Below are positions 16,597 through 36,803 of a stretch of 39,939 nt of DNA, one piece after another. The position numbers and the translations under genes were made by a program. The notes beneath the pieces are model-generated. The model worked only from the letters and a program-made list of their open reading frames with translations. It was not told where the DNA came from and did no database searches. The stretch comes from an uncultured Nitrospiraceae bacterium (lineage in GTDB: Bacteria; Nitrospirota; Thermodesulfovibrionia; Thermodesulfovibrionales; Thermodesulfovibrionaceae), in contig CAKZQH010000113.1 in NCBI GenBank assembly GCA_937139565.1, positions 1-39,939 of the forward strand, in the 5' to 3' direction. Position 1 is the stretch's first letter, and each line of letters begins with the position of its first letter.

Positions 16597-18486
16597 ATGA
16601 AAAAGAATATAAAAAAGCTATCCTTTATTCTACTAAATGACCCAGACCCTTCTGAAAGAAGAAAAGCAGCAGAAGAATTGGCATTTTCAGATGAAAGAGC
16701 AATTTATCCCTTAATTAAAGCACTCAGTGATAGTAGTCCAGCAGTACAGGAAGCCTCAACGCAGTCATTAATCACATTGGGTAGTTCTGACAAAAATAAT
16801 TTTCTTATAAATCCTGGTGAGTTAGTAACTTATATGGTTATCCCTCTTTTAAGAGAAGAAGAAGCCTATTTGAGAAACACTGCTCTTTTGATTATAAAAG
16901 AGATAGGACATAATGCCCCTAATCTTCTCTATCAACTTCTTAAAGACAAAGACCCAGATGTAAGAAAATTTGCTCTTGATCTAATAGCAGATATTAAGTA
17001 CGGTTTTGATGCATCATTTATTGTTCCGCTTCTCAAGGATCCAAATGGAAATGTAAGAGCTGCAGCAGCAAGGGCAATAGGAGAGATGGGATACAAGGAG
17101 GCTATCCCCGCACTAATTGAATGTCTTAATGATGAAGAATGGGTGGTTTTTTATGTTCTGCAGGCACTAGCAGCCTTAGATGCTGAAGAAGCAGTAGATC
17201 CAATAGGTGAGTTACTTCTTAACACTGATTCTTTACTTATAAAATCAGAGGCAATAGAAACTTTAGGTAAAATCGGAAATGAAAAAGTTACAGCTCCTCT
17301 TCTTAAATATTTTCCCTTGGCAACTCGAGATGAAAAAAAGGAAATAATAAAAGCTTTAATAAGAGTTGGAATTATTCCCTCTGGTACTGATATTAAGGAA
17401 GAAATAATTAATATTCTTAAGGAACAGGATTGGGACGAAAAAGTCTTAGCTATTGAAGGAATAAAGTTGATAAATTTGACAGAGGCAATTCCTTATATAG
17501 TTGAAGAAGCAGGAGCGCTTGATCCTTCTTGTTTTGATTATGATGAAAAGATATCTTTACTTCAAAATGCTCTCCTTTATCTTGATTCGGAAGATGAATT
17601 AATAGGGCTAATTGAAAGGGACAAACTTAAATACAGAGCAAAAGCCTTTGTTATTAATACCCTTGGACGAATGGGAAGCAAAAAAGCAGTACCCTTACTT
17701 ATAAAACTCCTTGAAGATATAAAGAGAGACATTAGAATAGCTTCAGCAAGAGCACTTGGAGAGATTGCAGATACCCAATCAGTTCAAAAACTTGTCCTAA
17801 CAAGCATTAATGATCCTGATGCCAATGTTCGCAAAGCAGCAATTGAGTCTTTGGGAATTATTAGAGATAAAAGAGCTTACGAACCGCTTTTTTCTTTGAT
17901 TGAAAAAGAAGTATATCCTGATATTTTAGAATCAATTGTTACAGCCCTTATATTAATTGACCAGGATAGATTTTTAGCAGGTTTAAAATCATATGGAAGC
18001 GATGTAAAACGAATTCTTGCGCAAATTACCTATTCAATGGATATTTTAAATATGCTTCTTGAATGTGAAGATATAGAGGTAAGAAAAGCTGCCATAGATG
18101 CCCTGGGAAGAGTAGGAACCAATGAGGCAATCTCAAAGCTTATTGAATTTATATCTGGAGAAAATAAAGAGCTTAAAAAGGCAGCAATAGCAGCTCTTGG
18201 AGATGCCCAGTTCTGCTCTGATATTCTTTTTGAATGTTTGAAAGATGAAGACCCATGGATAAGATATTATGCGGTAAAGGCTATGAATAAAGGATGCGAC
18301 CCTGAGGTTTTAATAGAAAAACTATCTCCACTTCTTGATGATCCTTTCCCTCCTGTGGTTATAGCAGTAATTGAGATATTGGGAGAAATAGGAGGTGGTG
18401 AAGTTTATGAATTACTCTCAAGCAGGAAAGAGCATCCTAATAGAGAAATAAGAGAAAAAATAGAGGAGGTTTTAAATAAAATATGA
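16597..18486 (+). CDS. HEAT-repeat protein in the chemotaxis gene run
   Basis: The 629-residue protein has no signal peptide and no membrane segment, so it is probably cytoplasmic. It is built almost wholly of HEAT/PBS-lyase-like repeats of about 31 residues, such as DPNGNVRAAAARAIGEMG, DIRIASARALGEIAD and DPDANVRKAAIESLG. No enzymatic domain is visible. HEAT solenoids serve as protein-binding scaffolds. It sits between fliA and cheR, overlaps cheR by four bases (ATGA), and has a good Shine-Dalgarno, so it is expressed with the chemotaxis genes. A role as scaffold or regulator of chemotaxis or motility is inference from position only. Confidence 0.8.
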   Translation: MKKNIKKLSFILLNDPDPSERRKAAEELAFSDERAIYPLIKALSDSSPAVQEASTQSLITLGSSDKNNFLINPGELVTYMVIPLLREEEAYLRNTALLIIKEIGHNAPNLLYQLLKDKDPDVRKFALDLIADIKYGFDASFIVPLLKDPNGNVRAAAARAIGEMGYKEAIPALIECLNDEEWVVFYVLQALAALDAEEAVDPIGELLLNTDSLLIKSEAIETLGKIGNEKVTAPLLKYFPLATRDEKKEIIKALIRVGIIPSGTDIKEEIINILKEQDWDEKVLAIEGIKLINLTEAIPYIVEEAGALDPSCFDYDEKISLLQNALLYLDSEDELIGLIERDKLKYRAKAFVINTLGRMGSKKAVPLLIKLLEDIKRDIRIASARALGEIADTQSVQKLVLTSINDPDANVRKAAIESLGIIRDKRAYEPLFSLIEKEVYPDILESIVTALILIDQDRFLAGLKSYGSDVKRILAQITYSMDILNMLLECEDIEVRKAAIDALGRVGTNEAISKLIEFISGENKELKKAAIAALGDAQFCSDILFECLKDEDPWIRYYAVKAMNKGCDPEVLIEKLSPLLDDPFPPVVIAVIEILGEIGGGEVYELLSSRKEHPNREIREKIEEVLNKI

Positions 18487-19334
18487 TGACTACAGTAGCA
18501 ACCTCTTCAATAGCAATGAATGATGAAATATTCAGACAGTTGAGAGATTTCATATACGAAAAAACCGGAATTTTTGTGCCAGACAATAAGAAATACTTTC
18601 TTGAGAATAGACTTAGCAGAATAATTAAAGAGCGAAATTTTCGTAATTATGAGGACTATCTCTATTTTCTAAAATACAATGCAACTAAGACTGATATAGC
18701 AAAACTTTTTGACGCAATAACAACAAATGAAACTTTCTTTTTTCGGGAGCCGCAGCAATTTGAAGTTTTTTCAAATAATTTGATTCCTCAGATAATTAAG
18801 GAAAATGCTCAGATGGGCAGAAAGGACTTAAAAATCTGGTCTGCTGCTTGTTCAAGTGGGGAAGAGCCCTATACAATTGCCATGATTTTGCTTGAAAAAC
18901 CAGAGCTTGTCTCTATTAGAAAGGAGATTTACGCTTCTGATATCAGTGAGTCTGTTCTTATGTCAGCAAGAAGAGGGATTTATGGAAATTATGCAGTAAG
19001 AAATATACCTCCTGCTTATATAGCTAAGTATTTTAAAGATTCAGGTGGTTTGTATAATCTTTCAGAATCGGTAAAATCAATGGTAAAATTTTTAAATATA
19101 AATCTCATAGATGAGAAAGAGGTTAAGCAATTTAAGGGTATTGATGTGGTATTTTGTAGGAATGTTCTCATCTATTTTGATGATAAGGCAAAAAAGAAAG
19201 TTGTTTCCTTAATTTATGATGTTCTTCGTCCAAAGGGATATTTATTTGTTGGTACCTCTGAGAGTTTGCATAATATTACAAGAGCCTTTCGACCAGTAGT
19301 TATTAATAAAGTGGTAGTCTATCAAAAACTGTAA
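18483..19334 (+). CDS. cheR: Chemotaxis receptor methyltransferase CheR
   Basis: The 283-residue protein has the N-terminal all-alpha CheR domain (about 12-70, IYEKTGIFVPDNKKYFLENR) and the SAM-dependent methyltransferase domain. The latter shows TTNETFFFREPQQF, WSAACSSGEEPYTIAM and VVFCRNVLIYFDD. It methylates glutamates on chemoreceptors, opposing CheB (23073). Two ATG codons are adjacent at 18483 and 18486; either could be used. It overlaps the HEAT gene by four bases. Confidence 0.94.
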   Translation: MMTTVATSSIAMNDEIFRQLRDFIYEKTGIFVPDNKKYFLENRLSRIIKERNFRNYEDYLYFLKYNATKTDIAKLFDAITTNETFFFREPQQFEVFSNNLIPQIIKENAQMGRKDLKIWSAACSSGEEPYTIAMILLEKPELVSIRKEIYASDISESVLMSARRGIYGNYAVRNIPPAYIAKYFKDSGGLYNLSESVKSMVKFLNINLIDEKEVKQFKGIDVVFCRNVLIYFDDKAKKKVVSLIYDVLRPKGYLFVGTSESLHNITRAFRPVVINKVVVYQKL

Positions 19335-19347
19335 CGGAGGTTTCTTT

Positions 19348-19728
19348 ATGAAGATTTTAGTTGTTGATGATGATAAAACAACAAGAAAAATGATCTCTCT
19401 TATTTTAAAGAGTAAGGGATATGATGTGGTTACAGCAGAAAATGGAATGGAAGGCCTTCAAAAATTGGGACTTGAACAGATAAATCTAATTCTTACTGAT
19501 ATGAATATGCCCTACATGGATGGAATAGAGTTTACAAAGCAGGTAAAATCCCTTCCTGATTTTGCCAATATTCCGATTGTGATGATAACAACAGAAGCGG
19601 ATGAAGAAGAGAAAAAAAGAGCTTTTGCTGCTGGAGTTGACGATTACCTTGTGAAACCAACCTCTGCAGATCAGATCATAGATTCTATGAAAAAAATTAT
19701 GAGAAAAATTTTTGGGAAAAAAGATTAG
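19348..19728 (+). CDS. CheY-like single-domain response regulator 1
   Basis: The 126-residue receiver domain has the acidic pair in VVDDDKTTRKM, the phospho-acceptor Asp in LILTDMNMPYMDG, the Thr in MITTEADEEE and the Lys in VKPTS, so it should be phosphorylatable. It is a standalone receiver with no output domain. Its sequence is further from enterobacterial CheY than the next gene. It could be a phosphate sink or serve a separate output. ACGGAGGT precedes the ATG. Confidence 0.88.
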   Translation: MKILVVDDDKTTRKMISLILKSKGYDVVTAENGMEGLQKLGLEQINLILTDMNMPYMDGIEFTKQVKSLPDFANIPIVMITTEADEEEKKRAFAAGVDDYLVKPTSADQIIDSMKKIMRKIFGKKD

Positions 19729-19741
19729 GGAGGTAACACAA

Positions 19742-20146
19742 ATGTTCAATTTTAAGATAAGGGTTTTGGTAGTAGATGATTTTCCTACAATGAGAAGAAT
19801 TGTAAAAAATTTGTTAAAGCAACTCGGATTTGAAAACATAGATGAAGCTGAAAATGGAGAGGATGCTCTCCGCAAGCTAAAAAGTACTGAATATGGCCTT
19901 GTTGTCTCTGACTGGAATATGCCTGTGATGGAAGGTATAGAACTGCTTAAAAATGTTAGGAGCGATCCCCAACTTAAGGACATAGCTTTTCTAATGGTCA
20001 CAGCAGAGGCTGAAAAAGAGAAAGTTATTGAGGCAATCAAGGCTGGAGTTGATAACTATATTGTAAAGCCTTTTACAGGAGAAGTTTTAAAGGAAAAATT
20101 GGAGAAGATTGCCCAGAAAAGGCCTGCTATTAAAGGAGGACAATAA
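19742..20146 (+). CDS. cheY: Chemotaxis response regulator CheY
   Basis: This 134-residue receiver closely resembles enterobacterial CheY: VLVVDDFPTMRRIVKNLLKQ, VVSDWNMPVMEG with the phospho-acceptor Asp, MVTAEAEKE and YIVKPF. Such CheY binds the N-terminus of FliM and is dephosphorylated by CheZ; both partners are in this window. ATG 19742 is preferred because GGGAGGT lies at 19728-19734. A TTG further upstream would run back into the previous gene. The stop shares one base with the cheA start (TAATG). Confidence 0.92.
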   Translation: MFNFKIRVLVVDDFPTMRRIVKNLLKQLGFENIDEAENGEDALRKLKSTEYGLVVSDWNMPVMEGIELLKNVRSDPQLKDIAFLMVTAEAEKEKVIEAIKAGVDNYIVKPFTGEVLKEKLEKIAQKRPAIKGGQ

Positions 20147-21852
20147 TGGCTGATGAGATGGATGAGATAATAAATGAATTTATAGTTGAGGCTGAAGAAA
20201 TACTAGAGCAACTTGATCCCCTTTTTGTTGAACTTGAGCAAAGAGGGGAAGACCCTGAGATAATAAACGAAATCTTCAGGGGAATGCATACCTTAAAGGG
20301 AGCAGCAGGTTTTTTGGGCTTTCAAAATATTGTTGATGTTGCCCATCGAGCAGAGGCTATTCTTAAAAAGCTAAGAGAAGGTGATGCTACTATCAATCCT
20401 CAGATTACGGATGCAATTCTTAAGGCTACTGATGTTCTAAGGCTTTTAATCTCCCATATAAAAGCAAAAGAGGAGTTTAAAGAGGATCTGTCTCCAGTGC
20501 TAACACTTTTGGATCAAGTTCTTTCAGAGTCTTCTACTGAACAGCCGCGGGAAGAAACGAAAAACTTACAACAAGAAGCAGAGGAGACTTATTCTTTAAA
20601 GCAAGAACAGGAAGAAAAACCATCAAAAACCGAAGAGACGGTAGCTCAAGCTACAAAAGAAAAAGAAGTATCTACTCTTAGAGTGGATGTGGTAAGAATA
20701 GACAAGGTAATGGATCTTGCGGGTGAAATTGTGCTTGCCCGCAATAGACTTCTAAATCTTGCAAGCAAGTTAGAGGCAAAATACTCTGGAGATGAAAATG
20801 TAGAAAGCCTGATTGAAACAACCTCTTTTCTTGACAGGGTGACTTCAGATTTACAACTGGCTGTTATGAAAATGAGAATGCAGCCCCTGCAAAAGGTTTT
20901 TGTAAAGTTCCCGAGAATGGTTCGAGACTTAGCAAGGACACTTGGAAAAGAAATAGAGCTCGAGATAATTGGTGAAGATACAGAAGTTGACAAATCAGTA
21001 ATTGAACATATCGGAGACCCCCTTGTTCACATAATAAGAAACTCCATAGATCATGGAATAGAGTCTACAGAAGAGAGAATAAAGAAAGGAAAACCTGCAA
21101 AGGGTAAAATAGTTATCAATGCTTATCAAAAGGGCACACAAATAGTTATTGATATAACTGATGATGGTAAAGGCATTGATGTGGAAGCTGTAAAAGCAAA
21201 GGCTATAATGAAAGGCTTAGTTACCTTAGAAGAAGCAGAAAAAATGTCTGAAGATGCCATAATAAACCTCATATTTATGCCAGGTTTTTCAACAAAGGAA
21301 GTCTCTACTGAAGTAAGTGGAAGAGGTGTGGGAATGGATGTGGTTAAATCCAATGTGGCGAAATTAAACGGTTATGTGGAGATATTTACAGAAAAAGATA
21401 AAGGAACCACCTTTAGAATAAGCATACCTCTTACCCTTGCAATAATCCAGACAATGATGGTTCAAGTTGGAGATGAAATATATGCAGTGCCTCAATCAAT
21501 GATTGAAGAAACTTTAAGGGTTAGCATAGATGAAATTAAGGAGGTTACAGGGCAAAAGGTTCTTACAGTGCGAGATAAAGTGTTGCCAATGTTCATGCTA
21601 AATCAAATTCTTGGAACCTTTGATAGCAATGAAGGAGACAGAAAATATATTCTTGTTGCCTCTGTAGGTGATAGACGTTTTTGTATATCTGTTGATGCAG
21701 TTTTAGGTCAAGAAGAAATTGTAATAAAATCCATAAACGGAATAAACTCTGAAGAATGCGGCATTATGGGAGCAACCATAACTGGAGATGGTAAAGTGGT
21801 ATTGATACTTGATCTTGCTGTTATTTCAAGAAAGGTTTTGAATGTAAAATAA
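20146..21852 (+). CDS. cheA: Chemotaxis histidine kinase CheA, lacking P2
   Basis: The 568-residue kinase has P1 (1-125) with phospho-accepting H48 in GMHTLKGAAGFLGF, then a charged linker (about 126-174). The dimerisation domain P3 follows (about 175-240, VVRIDKVMDLAGEIVLARNR). The GHKL kinase domain has HIIRNSIDHGIES, DDGKGID and GRGVGMDVV, and a CheW-like P5 ends the protein. The P2 domain that binds CheY and CheB is missing: the linker is only about 50 Glu/Gln/Lys-rich residues. The gene follows cheY with a one-base overlap and TAAAGGAGG as ribosome site. Confidence 0.94.
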   Translation: MADEMDEIINEFIVEAEEILEQLDPLFVELEQRGEDPEIINEIFRGMHTLKGAAGFLGFQNIVDVAHRAEAILKKLREGDATINPQITDAILKATDVLRLLISHIKAKEEFKEDLSPVLTLLDQVLSESSTEQPREETKNLQQEAEETYSLKQEQEEKPSKTEETVAQATKEKEVSTLRVDVVRIDKVMDLAGEIVLARNRLLNLASKLEAKYSGDENVESLIETTSFLDRVTSDLQLAVMKMRMQPLQKVFVKFPRMVRDLARTLGKEIELEIIGEDTEVDKSVIEHIGDPLVHIIRNSIDHGIESTEERIKKGKPAKGKIVINAYQKGTQIVIDITDDGKGIDVEAVKAKAIMKGLVTLEEAEKMSEDAIINLIFMPGFSTKEVSTEVSGRGVGMDVVKSNVAKLNGYVEIFTEKDKGTTFRISIPLTLAIIQTMMVQVGDEIYAVPQSMIEETLRVSIDEIKEVTGQKVLTVRDKVLPMFMLNQILGTFDSNEGDRKYILVASVGDRRFCISVDAVLGQEEIVIKSINGINSEECGIMGATITGDGKVVLILDLAVISRKVLNVK

Positions 21853-21875: not shown

Positions 21876-23060
21876 ATGAAACAGTACATAGGTTTTATTT
21901 TGGAAAAAAGTGAGTATTCTATTCCAATTCTTAAAGTTCAGGAGATAATCAAGTTACCGCAGATTACTAAAATTCCAGGTGTGCCCTATTATGTGGAAGG
22001 AATCACTAATCTGCGTGGTAGAGTTATTCCTATTGTAAATTTAAAGAGAATTCTTGGTGTGCCTGAAGAAGTAGAAGGTAGTAAAGTAATTGTAATTTCA
22101 TCGGGTAAAATCACCTTTGGTGCTCTTGTGGATGATATAACTGGAGTTGTAAACATAGATGAAAAAACCATAGAACCAGCAGAAGAATTTATGCAACAGG
22201 AGCAGAATCAGATTGAGGGAGTTGCTCGGCTTAATGATAGATTAATGGTTCTTCTGGATACAAAAAAGCTAATTCCTGCAGAGGATCAAGGTCTTTTTGA
22301 GGAGGAAATCGTAGAGGTAATTGAAGAGGGAGATAAGGTTGAGGTTATAAAAAAGGTTGCTGGAATTGGTGGGGAAATGACTGTGAAAGAATTTATAGAC
22401 CCAAAGCGACTATATGAGGAAAAGGGAATTTCAAAGGATGACCCGAAGTATCTTTTATTAGAAGAGATTAAAAGCTTTATGGATGCGGTTTCCTTAGGTG
22501 ATTTTGAAAATGCTGATAAAATAATGAACAGCATAATTCAAAAAAGTCAGAGCGATCTTTTCAAAGAGGTTGGTAAAGTTGCGAGAAAACTTCACGATTC
22601 CCTTAAGAGTTTCAGGGAAGCCCTTGATCCTAAGCTTAAAGAACTTGCAACTGAGCATATGCCAAGGGCAGTGGATCAGCTACAAATGGTCATTGATAAA
22701 ACAGAGGAAGCAGCAAATAAAACAATGGAAATAGTTGAAAAATATATTCTTCAGATGGATGATCTATCAAGTCATATCAGAGAATTGCAGGGACCTGAAG
22801 CATCTGTTCAATTTGTCAGAAATTTCAAGAATTCCCTTGAGGATGATCTTACAGAAATTTTGACTACCCAATCTTTTCAGGACTTAACTGGTCAGGTTTT
22901 AAAAAAGGTAATCTCTCTTGTTGGTGACCTTGAGGTAGAGCTCATAAGATTAATAGCTACCTTTGGATTAAAAATTGAAGATAAAGAGCCAATTAAGAAA
23001 GAAGTTGAGAAGGTTACACAGGAAGATGTGGACGATTTACTCAAAGAATTCGGATTTTAA
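21876..23060 (+). CDS. cheW-cheZ: CheW-CheZ fusion: coupling protein plus CheY-P phosphatase
   Basis: The 394-residue protein joins two chemotaxis proteins. Residues 1-140 are a CheW domain (YSIPILKVQEIIKLPQI, YYVEGITNLRGRVIPIVNL). Residues 140-190 form an acidic linker. Residues 190-394 are a long helical CheZ domain with FQDLTGQVLKKVI, where D336 and Q340 align with the phosphatase residues D143 and Q147 of Escherichia coli CheZ. The C-terminus, VDDLLKEFGF, matches the CheY-binding tail (VDDLLDSLGF in E. coli). CheW links CheA to receptors; the fusion would place the phosphatase in the array. GAGGAG lies before the ATG. Confidence 0.93.
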   Translation: MKQYIGFILEKSEYSIPILKVQEIIKLPQITKIPGVPYYVEGITNLRGRVIPIVNLKRILGVPEEVEGSKVIVISSGKITFGALVDDITGVVNIDEKTIEPAEEFMQQEQNQIEGVARLNDRLMVLLDTKKLIPAEDQGLFEEEIVEVIEEGDKVEVIKKVAGIGGEMTVKEFIDPKRLYEEKGISKDDPKYLLLEEIKSFMDAVSLGDFENADKIMNSIIQKSQSDLFKEVGKVARKLHDSLKSFREALDPKLKELATEHMPRAVDQLQMVIDKTEEAANKTMEIVEKYILQMDDLSSHIRELQGPEASVQFVRNFKNSLEDDLTEILTTQSFQDLTGQVLKKVISLVGDLEVELIRLIATFGLKIEDKEPIKKEVEKVTQEDVDDLLKEFGF

Positions 23061-23072
23061 GGAGAAAAGCGT

Positions 23073-24116
23073 ATGATAAAGGTGCTTGTTGTAGATGATT
23101 CTGCTTTTATGAGAAAAGCTCTTTCATCTATGCTTCAAGAGGATCCTGAAATTAAGGTTGTAGGAACAGCAAGAGATGGCATGGAAGCAATCCAGATGAT
23201 TAGGGATTTAAAACCTGATGTGGTAACAATGGATGTTGAAATGCCTCGAATGGATGGAATCACAGCACTTAAAGAGATAATGAGTAAAAATCCAGTGCCA
23301 GTGATAATGGTAAGCTCTCTTACTACAGAAGGTGCAAAGGTTACACTGGAAGCATTAGAATTAGGTGCTATTGATTTTATTCCTAAAAATTTGGCGGAAC
23401 TTTCTGTAAACATAGTAAAGATAAAAGGCATGTTAGTTGAAAAGATTAAAACCATCGGGAAGCGAGGAGTTGTAAAAAGAAAGGTAGTACCTCGACCTGC
23501 TGAAGTTCCTAAGATTGAACCTCCAAAAGTAAGGGTTACTACTGAAAGAAAGGTTGGACTTGTATCCATTGGTACTTCTACCGGAGGGCCAAAGGCCTTA
23601 CAAGAGATTATTCCTAAGCTACCTAAGGATTTTCCAGTTCCCATAGTTATTGCGCAGCACATGCCGCCTAATTTTACCAGACCCTTTGCAGAAAGGCTTG
23701 ACCAACTAAGTCAGCTTTCTGTAAAGGAAGCTGAAGAGGGAGAGACCATAAAGCCAGGTATAGTTTATATTGCACCTGGTCGAGGTCATATGAGACTTAA
23801 AAGAAGAGGCATTGAAACTTACATATCCATCTCCGAAGATAGGGAAGAGTTCATTTACAGACCCAGTGTGGATGCTCTTATGATTTCAGTGGCAGAATGT
23901 TTTCCTGGAAGAAGTCTTGGTGTTATACTTACAGGAATGGGAAATGATGGAGCCCATGGTTGTAAGAAGATAAAAGAATCAGGTGGTAGAGTATTTGCAC
24001 AAAATGAAGAAACCTGTGTAGTATATGGAATGCCCCGTGCAGTTGTTGAACTTGGTGTGGCAGATAAGGTAGTTCCTCTTGAAGAAATGGCGGGAGAAAT
24101 AATTAATGCTGTGTAA
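23073..24116 (+). CDS. cheB: Chemotaxis protein-glutamate methylesterase CheB
   Basis: The 347-residue protein has a receiver domain (1-120; VVDDSAFMRKALSSML, phospho-acceptor Asp in VVTMDVEMPRMDG), a linker, and the methylesterase domain (about 160-347). The catalytic triad is seen as Ser in SIGTSTGGPKAL, His in IAQHMPPNFT and Asp in TGMGNDGAHG. It removes methyl groups from, and may deamidate, chemoreceptors. AAGGAG precedes the ATG. No cheD is nearby. Confidence 0.94.
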   Translation: MIKVLVVDDSAFMRKALSSMLQEDPEIKVVGTARDGMEAIQMIRDLKPDVVTMDVEMPRMDGITALKEIMSKNPVPVIMVSSLTTEGAKVTLEALELGAIDFIPKNLAELSVNIVKIKGMLVEKIKTIGKRGVVKRKVVPRPAEVPKIEPPKVRVTTERKVGLVSIGTSTGGPKALQEIIPKLPKDFPVPIVIAQHMPPNFTRPFAERLDQLSQLSVKEAEEGETIKPGIVYIAPGRGHMRLKRRGIETYISISEDREEFIYRPSVDALMISVAECFPGRSLGVILTGMGNDGAHGCKKIKESGGRVFAQNEETCVVYGMPRAVVELGVADKVVPLEEMAGEIINAV

Positions 24117-34664: not shown

Positions 34665-36803
34665 ATGAAAGTATATAAGTCGAAGGGAAAAACCGATATA
34701 TTATTTAATGGCTACACCTTTAAAATAAAACCAGGTGATAAATTTCTATTCGCAGATGATGTTTTTAACCTTCTTCCAGAGCCTTTAAAATCTCTTTTCG
34801 AGCAATCTTATAGTGTGCTTCCTCCCTTTTACAAAGGTCAATCCTTAGATGGAAAAACTCTTCTTTTCATAGCTCAAGCAGCAATTGGTGATGCTCTTTG
34901 TATGACTCCTGCACTTAGAGAAATAAAGAAGAAGTATCCCACTATGACTCTCAATGTCTCTATTTCAGGTAAAGCAAGACCTGTTCTTGAGGGGCTATCC
35001 TATATTGATAATCTTCTTCCAATGCCAATTCCTTTCAAAGAAGTTGCAAAGGCAGACTATATTGTAAAGGCTATTGAAATGGTTGGTACTCCCCAGTTCG
35101 ATAGTCTGAGTCTTGTTGAATACTACCTCTTGAAATTGAACATTCCAAAGGCAGAAAAAGAGACGCCTGATGTTATTTTAGACAATGCTATATTAGCTGA
35201 AATGCAAGAGATTTTCAGCAAAATAAAGGAATCATCAGGTGGTAAAAAAATACTACTTTTTCATTATCTATCCTCTTCAGTTCACAGAACCCTTCCTCCG
35301 AAACTTTTAAAAGAAATAGAGGATTTAATATGGGATGAATATGTTCCTGTAATATGTTCCATGCCCAATGAGGATATAACTGTTGAAACTGCTCTGGATA
35401 TTTATGGCATTAGAGCAGCGAATCTTTCAGTGTTTATGAAAAATATTAAATATCTTATTGCTGCTGTAGCTCTTTCTGATGCAGTTATAACAGCAGATAC
35501 AGTAACTGTTCACATAGCAGGAGGATTAGAAAAACCAGGAGTTCTAATTACAGGACCTATTGATGGTCAGTTAAGAGTTGGAAATTATCCTACTATAATA
35601 TCTGTTTCTTATCCCTACAAAGGTCAAACCTGTATTGCTCCATGTATGCAACATGCTCTTAAAACTCCTTGTGCTGAGGCTCAGATTAAGAGACAATTTT
35701 ATAGCCCCTGCATTGAGAGCATCCCTCCGAAGGTAATCTACTTGGCTCTCAAAGATGCTGAGATTCTCTCATGCAGTGAATATGAAAGACCGAAGAAATG
35801 TATACTCTGTGAGTTCATGGGAGAGATTCCGCTTTTTGAAGTAATAAACAGCCATCGGATTTTTGAATGTCCTTCCTGTGGATTACATTTTGTCTATCCG
35901 ATGGGAACAATGGATTATGAAAAAGCCTATGAAAAAAAACACGGAGATCTTCTTGACTTTTCTTTAAATTTGGCTTATGATTCCTATCAAAACGTGGAAG
36001 ATGAAAATAGCGAGATAGAGAGGTGGAGTAATCTTCCGAGATTTAAAGTAATATTGCCTATATTATCTGAAATTCCAAAGGGTAAGCTTCTTGACATCGG
36101 CTGTTCAACAGGCTTTTTTATGCTTATTGCTAAAAGATTAGGTTTTGAAGTTTACGGTATAGAGGCTTCTGAGCAGGCGGTTAATATAGCAAAGGACAAA
36201 TTTAAGCTAAGTGTAGCAAAAGCTCATTCCCTTGATGAAATACCAGATAGCTTTCCTGAATCATACGATATTATAACCGCCTTTGAAGTTTTAGAGCATT
36301 TAGAAGAGCCTTTTAAATTTTTACAGGATATTTATTCGTTACTAAATGAAAAGGGAATACTTATACTTAGTATTCCTCCTTTTTATAAATTTGAAAATGT
36401 AGCATTGGGCTACAGAAAATACAAATGGTGGAATAATGACTATCCGCCTCACCATGTTACTCGTTGGAAACCCTGGACTCTCCATTACGCATTAAAAAAA
36501 GCTCAATTTAACCAAATTCATCTTTTCACTGAACCTCTAATTCCTGGAACAGTTAGCGAAGGAATTAATATAAAAGCCTTTGAATTTGCTACAGAGCAAG
36601 GTTCTAAGGTAACAATTCCTAATAATGTCACAGCAAGTATTCTTTTTGAATTATTAAAGCCTCTATTTTTAAATTCAAAAAATCTCGGTAATTTTCAATA
36701 TGCAATTGCGGTAAAGGGCAAATCTCCACTCAATCTGGAGGGACTAATTCTTCGGGCAATAAGATTTTCAGCGGTCGAGATAATTTGGGGCAATGATAGA
36801 TAA
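34665..36803 (+). CDS. GT9-like glycosyltransferase / zinc-ribbon / SAM methyltransferase protein
   Basis: The 712-residue protein appears to have four parts. Residues 1-60 are a small unknown domain. Residues about 62-365 resemble GT9 heptosyltransferase-type enzymes (FIAQAAIGDALCMTPALREI; ADTVTVHIAGGLEKPGVLIT). At about 382-412, CILC and CPSC form a zinc-ribbon. Residues about 413-640 form a class I methyltransferase (LLDIGCSTGFFMLIAKRLGF; ITAFEVLEHLEEP; ILILSIPPF). No membrane helix or signal is seen, so it is probably cytoplasmic. It lies 19 bases after fliW in the flagellar run with GAGAGGC upstream, so flagellin or surface sugar modification is plausible, but unproven. Confidence 0.75.
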   Translation: MKVYKSKGKTDILFNGYTFKIKPGDKFLFADDVFNLLPEPLKSLFEQSYSVLPPFYKGQSLDGKTLLFIAQAAIGDALCMTPALREIKKKYPTMTLNVSISGKARPVLEGLSYIDNLLPMPIPFKEVAKADYIVKAIEMVGTPQFDSLSLVEYYLLKLNIPKAEKETPDVILDNAILAEMQEIFSKIKESSGGKKILLFHYLSSSVHRTLPPKLLKEIEDLIWDEYVPVICSMPNEDITVETALDIYGIRAANLSVFMKNIKYLIAAVALSDAVITADTVTVHIAGGLEKPGVLITGPIDGQLRVGNYPTIISVSYPYKGQTCIAPCMQHALKTPCAEAQIKRQFYSPCIESIPPKVIYLALKDAEILSCSEYERPKKCILCEFMGEIPLFEVINSHRIFECPSCGLHFVYPMGTMDYEKAYEKKHGDLLDFSLNLAYDSYQNVEDENSEIERWSNLPRFKVILPILSEIPKGKLLDIGCSTGFFMLIAKRLGFEVYGIEASEQAVNIAKDKFKLSVAKAHSLDEIPDSFPESYDIITAFEVLEHLEEPFKFLQDIYSLLNEKGILILSIPPFYKFENVALGYRKYKWWNNDYPPHHVTRWKPWTLHYALKKAQFNQIHLFTEPLIPGTVSEGINIKAFEFATEQGSKVTIPNNVTASILFELLKPLFLNSKNLGNFQYAIAVKGKSPLNLEGLILRAIRFSAVEIIWGNDR

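Follow-up and report, generated by a model that had tools for sequence, protein, structure and literature searches.

A CheW-CheZ fusion protein in a class of Nitrospirota is a probable array-anchored CheY-P phosphatase

Introduction

In Escherichia coli (E. coli), the phosphatase CheZ is a dimer formed through a helical hairpin, and it belongs to a four-helix-bundle family. CheZ of this species reaches the chemosensory array through the short form of CheA, and two aromatic residues at the apical loop of the hairpin make most of the contact (PMC7750401). According to modelling of E. coli, the CheY-P gradient across the cell becomes flatter when CheZ is bound to the array (PMC1447658). The CheZ proteins of alpha- and delta-proteobacteria do not have the CheA-short-binding sequences (PMC7750401), and the placement of a CheZ that lacks the docking tip for CheA-short is a question in many bacteria. 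In the coupling protein CheW, the pair Glu38/Arg62 keeps the receptor and kinase sites in register (PMC3828127). CheW domains are also found fused to other domains. A study of the Treponema denticola protein CheWS reports that this fusion shares ring positions with classical CheW in the array (PMC10653840). The same study counts, from Pfam, 30 unstudied architectures that contain a CheW domain (Fig. S10); its main text makes no mention of CheZ, and a CheW-CheZ arrangement may be among these 30. Here, we analysed a stretch of 39,939 nucleotides, hereafter the window, in which a single gene encodes both a CheW and a CheZ domain. The open literature searched, outside which most subscription papers fall, contained no description of a CheW-CheZ fusion or of a Thermodesulfovibrio CheZ. 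The combination appears to be new, and both domains belong to known families.

Results

The cheW-cheZ fusion gene (21876-23060, + strand) is an open reading frame of 394 amino acids with no internal stop, assigned by translation, Pfam matches and full-length conservation. The encoded protein can be divided into three segments. The CheW-like adaptor domain, residues 3-134 (21882-22277, +), which includes E23 and R47, matches PF01584 with E=2.5e-35 and 121.5 bits, against a curated cut-off of 23.5, and covers positions 1-135 of the 138 in the profile. A linker with extra N-terminal helices, residues 135-226 (22278-22553, +), is placed by the gap between the Pfam matches and by weak structure models. 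The CheZ phosphatase domain, residues 227-394 (22554-23057, +), matches PF04344 with E=2.1e-32 and 113.1 bits, against a curated cut-off of 30.7. This match comes as two stretches, located at 22554-22790 and 22815-23057 by the genome profile search, and skips profile positions 78-106; in the alignment, the hairpin is 21 residues shorter than that of E. coli. A preliminary description of this DNA had read a complete CheW followed by a CheZ in one protein and had called for a CheZ profile match in the C-terminal half; both are borne out by these profiles in an uninterrupted frame.

The catalytic motif DLTGQ (22881-22895, +) contains D336 and Q340, which align with D143 and Q147 in the DLTGQ of E. 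coli. The C-terminal CheY-P-binding peptide VDDLLKEFGF (23028-23057, +) corresponds to VDDLLDSLGF in E. coli, and the two elements lie at the sites first described for them. The D and Q of DxxxQ are invariant in the sequences of the genus and in the alignment of fusions with CheZ, and nearly all aligned fusions have both the motif and the C-terminal peptide. When compared with sequences in the PDB, the first half of the fusion finds its best match in E. coli CheW, and the second half matches E. coli CheZ (1kmi). Pfam gave no Response_reg match in the fusion protein, which thus does not have the layout of CheV, a CheW domain followed by a receiver. AlphaFold models from two runs with 8 close sequences had mean pLDDT values of 47.5 and 50.8, at which the helix pattern alone is usable; because of this low confidence, the dimerisation and placement of the fusion rest on homology.

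The fusion gene belongs to a che operon in a flagellar region. In the window, flhB, flhA, flhF, flhG and fliA are followed by a gene for a HEAT-repeat protein and by cheR, after which come the two single-domain response regulators, cheA, the fusion gene and cheB. Behind cheB, a gene for an HDOD protein precedes flgF/flgG-like rod genes and flgK. Pfam identifies cheR (18483-19334, +) and cheA (20146-21852, +), whose product of 568 amino acids comprises P1, P3, P4 and P5. No P2 domain was found in this CheA by Pfam, and more than half of CheA homologues are without P2 (PMC10782961). The gene cheB (23073-24116, +) was assigned from Pfam and NCBIfam-type matches. The first response regulator of the pair ahead of cheA (19348-19728, +) was assigned by Pfam and a check of its active-site residues. 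The second (19712-20146, +) is the closest to E. coli CheY, matches the NCBIfam CheY model with E=1.5e-50 and retains the equivalents of D12, D13, D57, N59, T87, E89, Y106 and K109; by its sequence, it is the likely CheY-P substrate of the fusion. Both members of the pair (19348-20146, +) have full active-site residues, and the pair is kept in nearly all operons that contain the HEAT gene. The HEAT-repeat protein itself, of 629 amino acids (16597-18486, +), is encoded between fliA and cheR, and almost every related che operon that was read has a relative of it next to cheR (loci L006-L011, L085-L090 and L094-L097); we know of no role for it in chemotaxis. Across families, this order is repeated from the HEAT gene to cheA and the fusion with slight variations, in that the fusion is found before cheA in L090 and L097, and after cheB in L089. 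Scans of the che region for promoters and terminators gave no more than chance. After the flagellar genes, the window also encodes a protein of 712 amino acids (34665-36803, +) with a methyltransferase domain at residues 470-619.

The tip of the CheZ hairpin in E. coli, counted on the sequence, consists of W94, W97 and F98. The segment from the helix that precedes the tip to the catalytic motif spans 68 residues in E. coli, 47 in the genus, and 47, 56, 58 or 64 in other fusions. In the alignment, the aromatic tip is absent from the fusions of the genus, which are accordingly not of the enteric type that docks on CheA-short, and the stand-alone CheZ proteins of other Nitrospirota likewise have no tip aromatics. 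Since these stand-alone proteins, as well as the proteobacterial ones cited above, also lack the tip, its loss need not come from the fusion, and the short hairpin may be older than the fusion. Judged from the sequence, the enteric docking route through CheA-short appears closed to the fusion protein, and the CheW domain would offer an alternative. A family profile search of the genome found no CheZ besides the fusion, and family searches found no CheC or CheX matches.

Other CheW proteins are present in the genome, which is 99.97% complete. The profile search found five CheW domains, two in CheA proteins, one in the fusion and two in stand-alone genes. One of the latter, on contig C95, is a canonical CheW of 172 amino acids (147 bits) and is located apart from other che genes, while the other, on C106, is part of a second chemosensory cluster, which also encodes a hybrid CheA and an MCP. 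In this second cluster (locus L013, 7700-10343, genome G000), the CheW is short and covers profile positions 2-86 only, and the hybrid CheA has a receiver domain. The absence of a separate cheW or cheZ from the locus, as first described, therefore holds within the window but does not extend to the genome, which has stand-alone cheW genes elsewhere. The suggestion that the fusion is both the sole phosphatase and the sole coupling protein stands for its first part to the extent that family searches show, as the only CheZ and with CheC and CheX not found, and was rejected for its second by these genome searches. The supposition that every CheW copy would carry a phosphatase is likewise not supported.

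In related genomes, a survey of which had also been proposed, the fusion is widespread, and at least one stand-alone CheW match occurs in all 31 fusion genomes examined, the better match in one of them (G067) being a fragment in a frame of 85 amino acids. Fusion and stand-alone CheW share an operon in several other families (L085, L086, L087, L088, L090 and L097). The orphan CheW of Thermodesulfovibrio clusters with those operon-encoded proteins in the first of two CheW trees and is therefore most likely the corresponding CheW of the flagellar array, moved out of the operon. Two members of the genus, G093 (C29:5266-6696) and G052 (C1:107012-108439), encode proteins of about 500 amino acids with three tandem CheW domains (L057 and L058), near an additional large CheA-like protein.

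The fusion is full length in all 11 genomes of the genus Thermodesulfovibrio that were examined. The whole fusion, with no internal stops, is also encoded at 76-83% identity by seven public loci, whose labels read Thermodesulfovibrio, Nitrospiraceae or uncultured. The fusion profile was matched at a threshold of E below 1e-40 by 108 of the 200 genomes in a sample of the class, and the matching genomes represent 53 of 108 genera. These matches are mostly whole-length with both domains; a few are split, partial or truncated by the end of a contig, and a stop occurs in one. Since the fusion is full length in many independent genomes, it is not an artefact, and an assembly error or a frameshift as its source, including the stop or frameshift between the domains considered earlier, is ruled out by the seven loci and by roughly 100 genomes of the class with an intact frame. 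In a sample of the phylum, fusions were also found outside the class in families f22 and f25, and many genomes of family f29 have a CheZ reading frame of about 200-275 amino acids. Some genomes (G158, G290, G417 and G401) encode two full-length CheW-CheZ fusions each.

In a first tree of CheW domains, some fusions fell among the stand-alone CheWs; a long CheA row was misplaced in it, and further branches were long too. In a second tree, from which the long CheA row and the other long-branch rows were left out, 43 of the 45 fusion CheW domains fall together in a single group (support 99/96). The other two, from family f22, join weakly (74/10), so that a second origin there is possible, and the fusion may have arisen separately in this family. 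The two divergent f22 fusions lie at L092 6445-7842 and L093 8223-9797. E23 and R47 are the equivalents of Glu38 and Arg62 of E. coli CheW, and both are invariant in the 45 fusion domains and in 20 stand-alone CheWs. The equivalents of Gly57, Gly99 and Val108 are also invariant in the fusions. The fusion clade has I, M or V at E. coli position 40, where the stand-alone CheWs have N, and the two groups also differ at position 120.

Discussion

The fusion is probably an auxiliary CheW-type adaptor, comparable to CheV, that anchors a CheY-P phosphatase in the chemosensory array. Its CheW domain would take a CheW position, either in the CheA P5/CheW rings or in CheW-only rings, beside the stand-alone CheW. 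The CheZ part would dimerise through the helical hairpin as in E. coli, the C-terminal peptide would catch CheY-P, and D336 and Q340 would dephosphorylate it. The covalent CheW head would replace the contact between the hairpin tip and CheA-short, and would bring the kinase and the phosphatase side by side in the array. Co-localisation of the fusion CheZ with the array is, from the sequence, a reasonable inference. With a CheZ part that dimerises as in E. coli, each fusion unit would carry two CheW heads. These heads might cross-link neighbouring rings or core units and make the phosphatase a structural element of the array, a proposal that we hold tentatively and consider rather doubtful. If it were true, the amount of CheZ and the geometry of the array would be coupled, with an off-enzyme built into the arrays across this class of Nitrospirota.

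Other explanations of the fusion were also weighed. In one of these, its CheW domain would no longer couple receptors to the kinase; with no ring position, it would dock CheZ to a receptor or to CheA P5, or inhibit CheZ until bound. Binding to P5 and to receptors is a property of CheW domains, the sequence of a tethered regulator would be no different, and the stand-alone CheW could fill the rings alone; however, the equivalents of Glu38/Arg62, Gly57, Gly99 and Val108 are invariant, as expected with both binding faces under selection, and we regard this possibility as unlikely. In another, the fusion would do most or all of the coupling in the flagellar pathway, every CheW in the array having a phosphatase and the stand-alone CheW serving something else. 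It retains the coupling residues, and in the genus no other CheW gene is found in the flagellar che operon, where the fusion comes immediately after cheA. Yet the canonical stand-alone CheW has the higher Pfam score (147 versus 124 bits), a stand-alone CheW accompanies the fusion in all 31 genomes, once as a fragment, and other families have it within the operon of the fusion, the orphan of the genus grouping with these operon-encoded proteins. This makes such a role very unlikely.

A division of labour among receptors is conceivable as well, in which the fusion mainly serves a subset of them and the phosphatase damps their signalling locally. CheV has been proposed to act on a receptor subset in enterobacteria (PMC4742279), and the fusion clade does differ from stand-alone CheWs at several positions, such as 40 and 120. 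In this genome, however, a near-identical signalling tip (21 letters, then (E/D)QGRGFAVVADEVR) recurs in six of the nine MCP matches, so that there are no obvious two groups of receptors for two adaptors and such a CheV-like role becomes less likely; moreover, as the only CheZ, the fusion must serve the whole pathway. We consider this division quite improbable. The phosphatase could also be only partly array-bound, if an internal translation start yielded free CheZ in addition. All 8 sequences of the genus have the ATG of M202, preceded by purine-rich DNA, but this DNA codes for residues that are themselves conserved, lies at a long spacing and shows no strong ribosome-binding site; M168 is variable. 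A conserved internal start was not retained as a candidate, and we hold free CheZ from this source to be highly improbable.

When compared with the CheZ/CheA-short pair of E. coli, the fusion has the same CheZ family, the same catalytic D and Q, a C-terminal CheY-P-binding peptide and, as we infer for the fusion, a phosphatase at the array. It differs by the covalent link to CheW, by the absence of the aromatic tip and by the shorter hairpin. CheV resembles it as an extra CheW-type adaptor with a second domain that affects CheY-P, present beside an ordinary CheW (PMC4742279), but the partner domain of CheV is a receiver, or phosphate sink, and that of the fusion is a CheZ phosphatase. CheWS of Treponema denticola is likewise a CheW fused to a domain of a Che family, in this case CheR-like; this domain of CheWS is a SAM sensor (PMC10653840), while that of the fusion is apparently an active phosphatase. 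In this way, the CheW position would serve repeatedly for the entry of different enzymes into arrays. The CheZ proteins of Azorhizobium caulinodans and other alpha-proteobacteria are, like the fusion, without a CheA-short-binding sequence (PMC7750401). In A. caulinodans, CheZ localises by its own N-terminal region, independently of CheA (PMC7750401), whereas the fusion has a CheW domain instead. Here, the gene itself points to a CheW-domain tether for a CheZ that lacks the docking tip, and a natural and widespread CheW-CheZ would allow a direct test, through separation of its domains, of what is gained by co-localising kinase and phosphatase.
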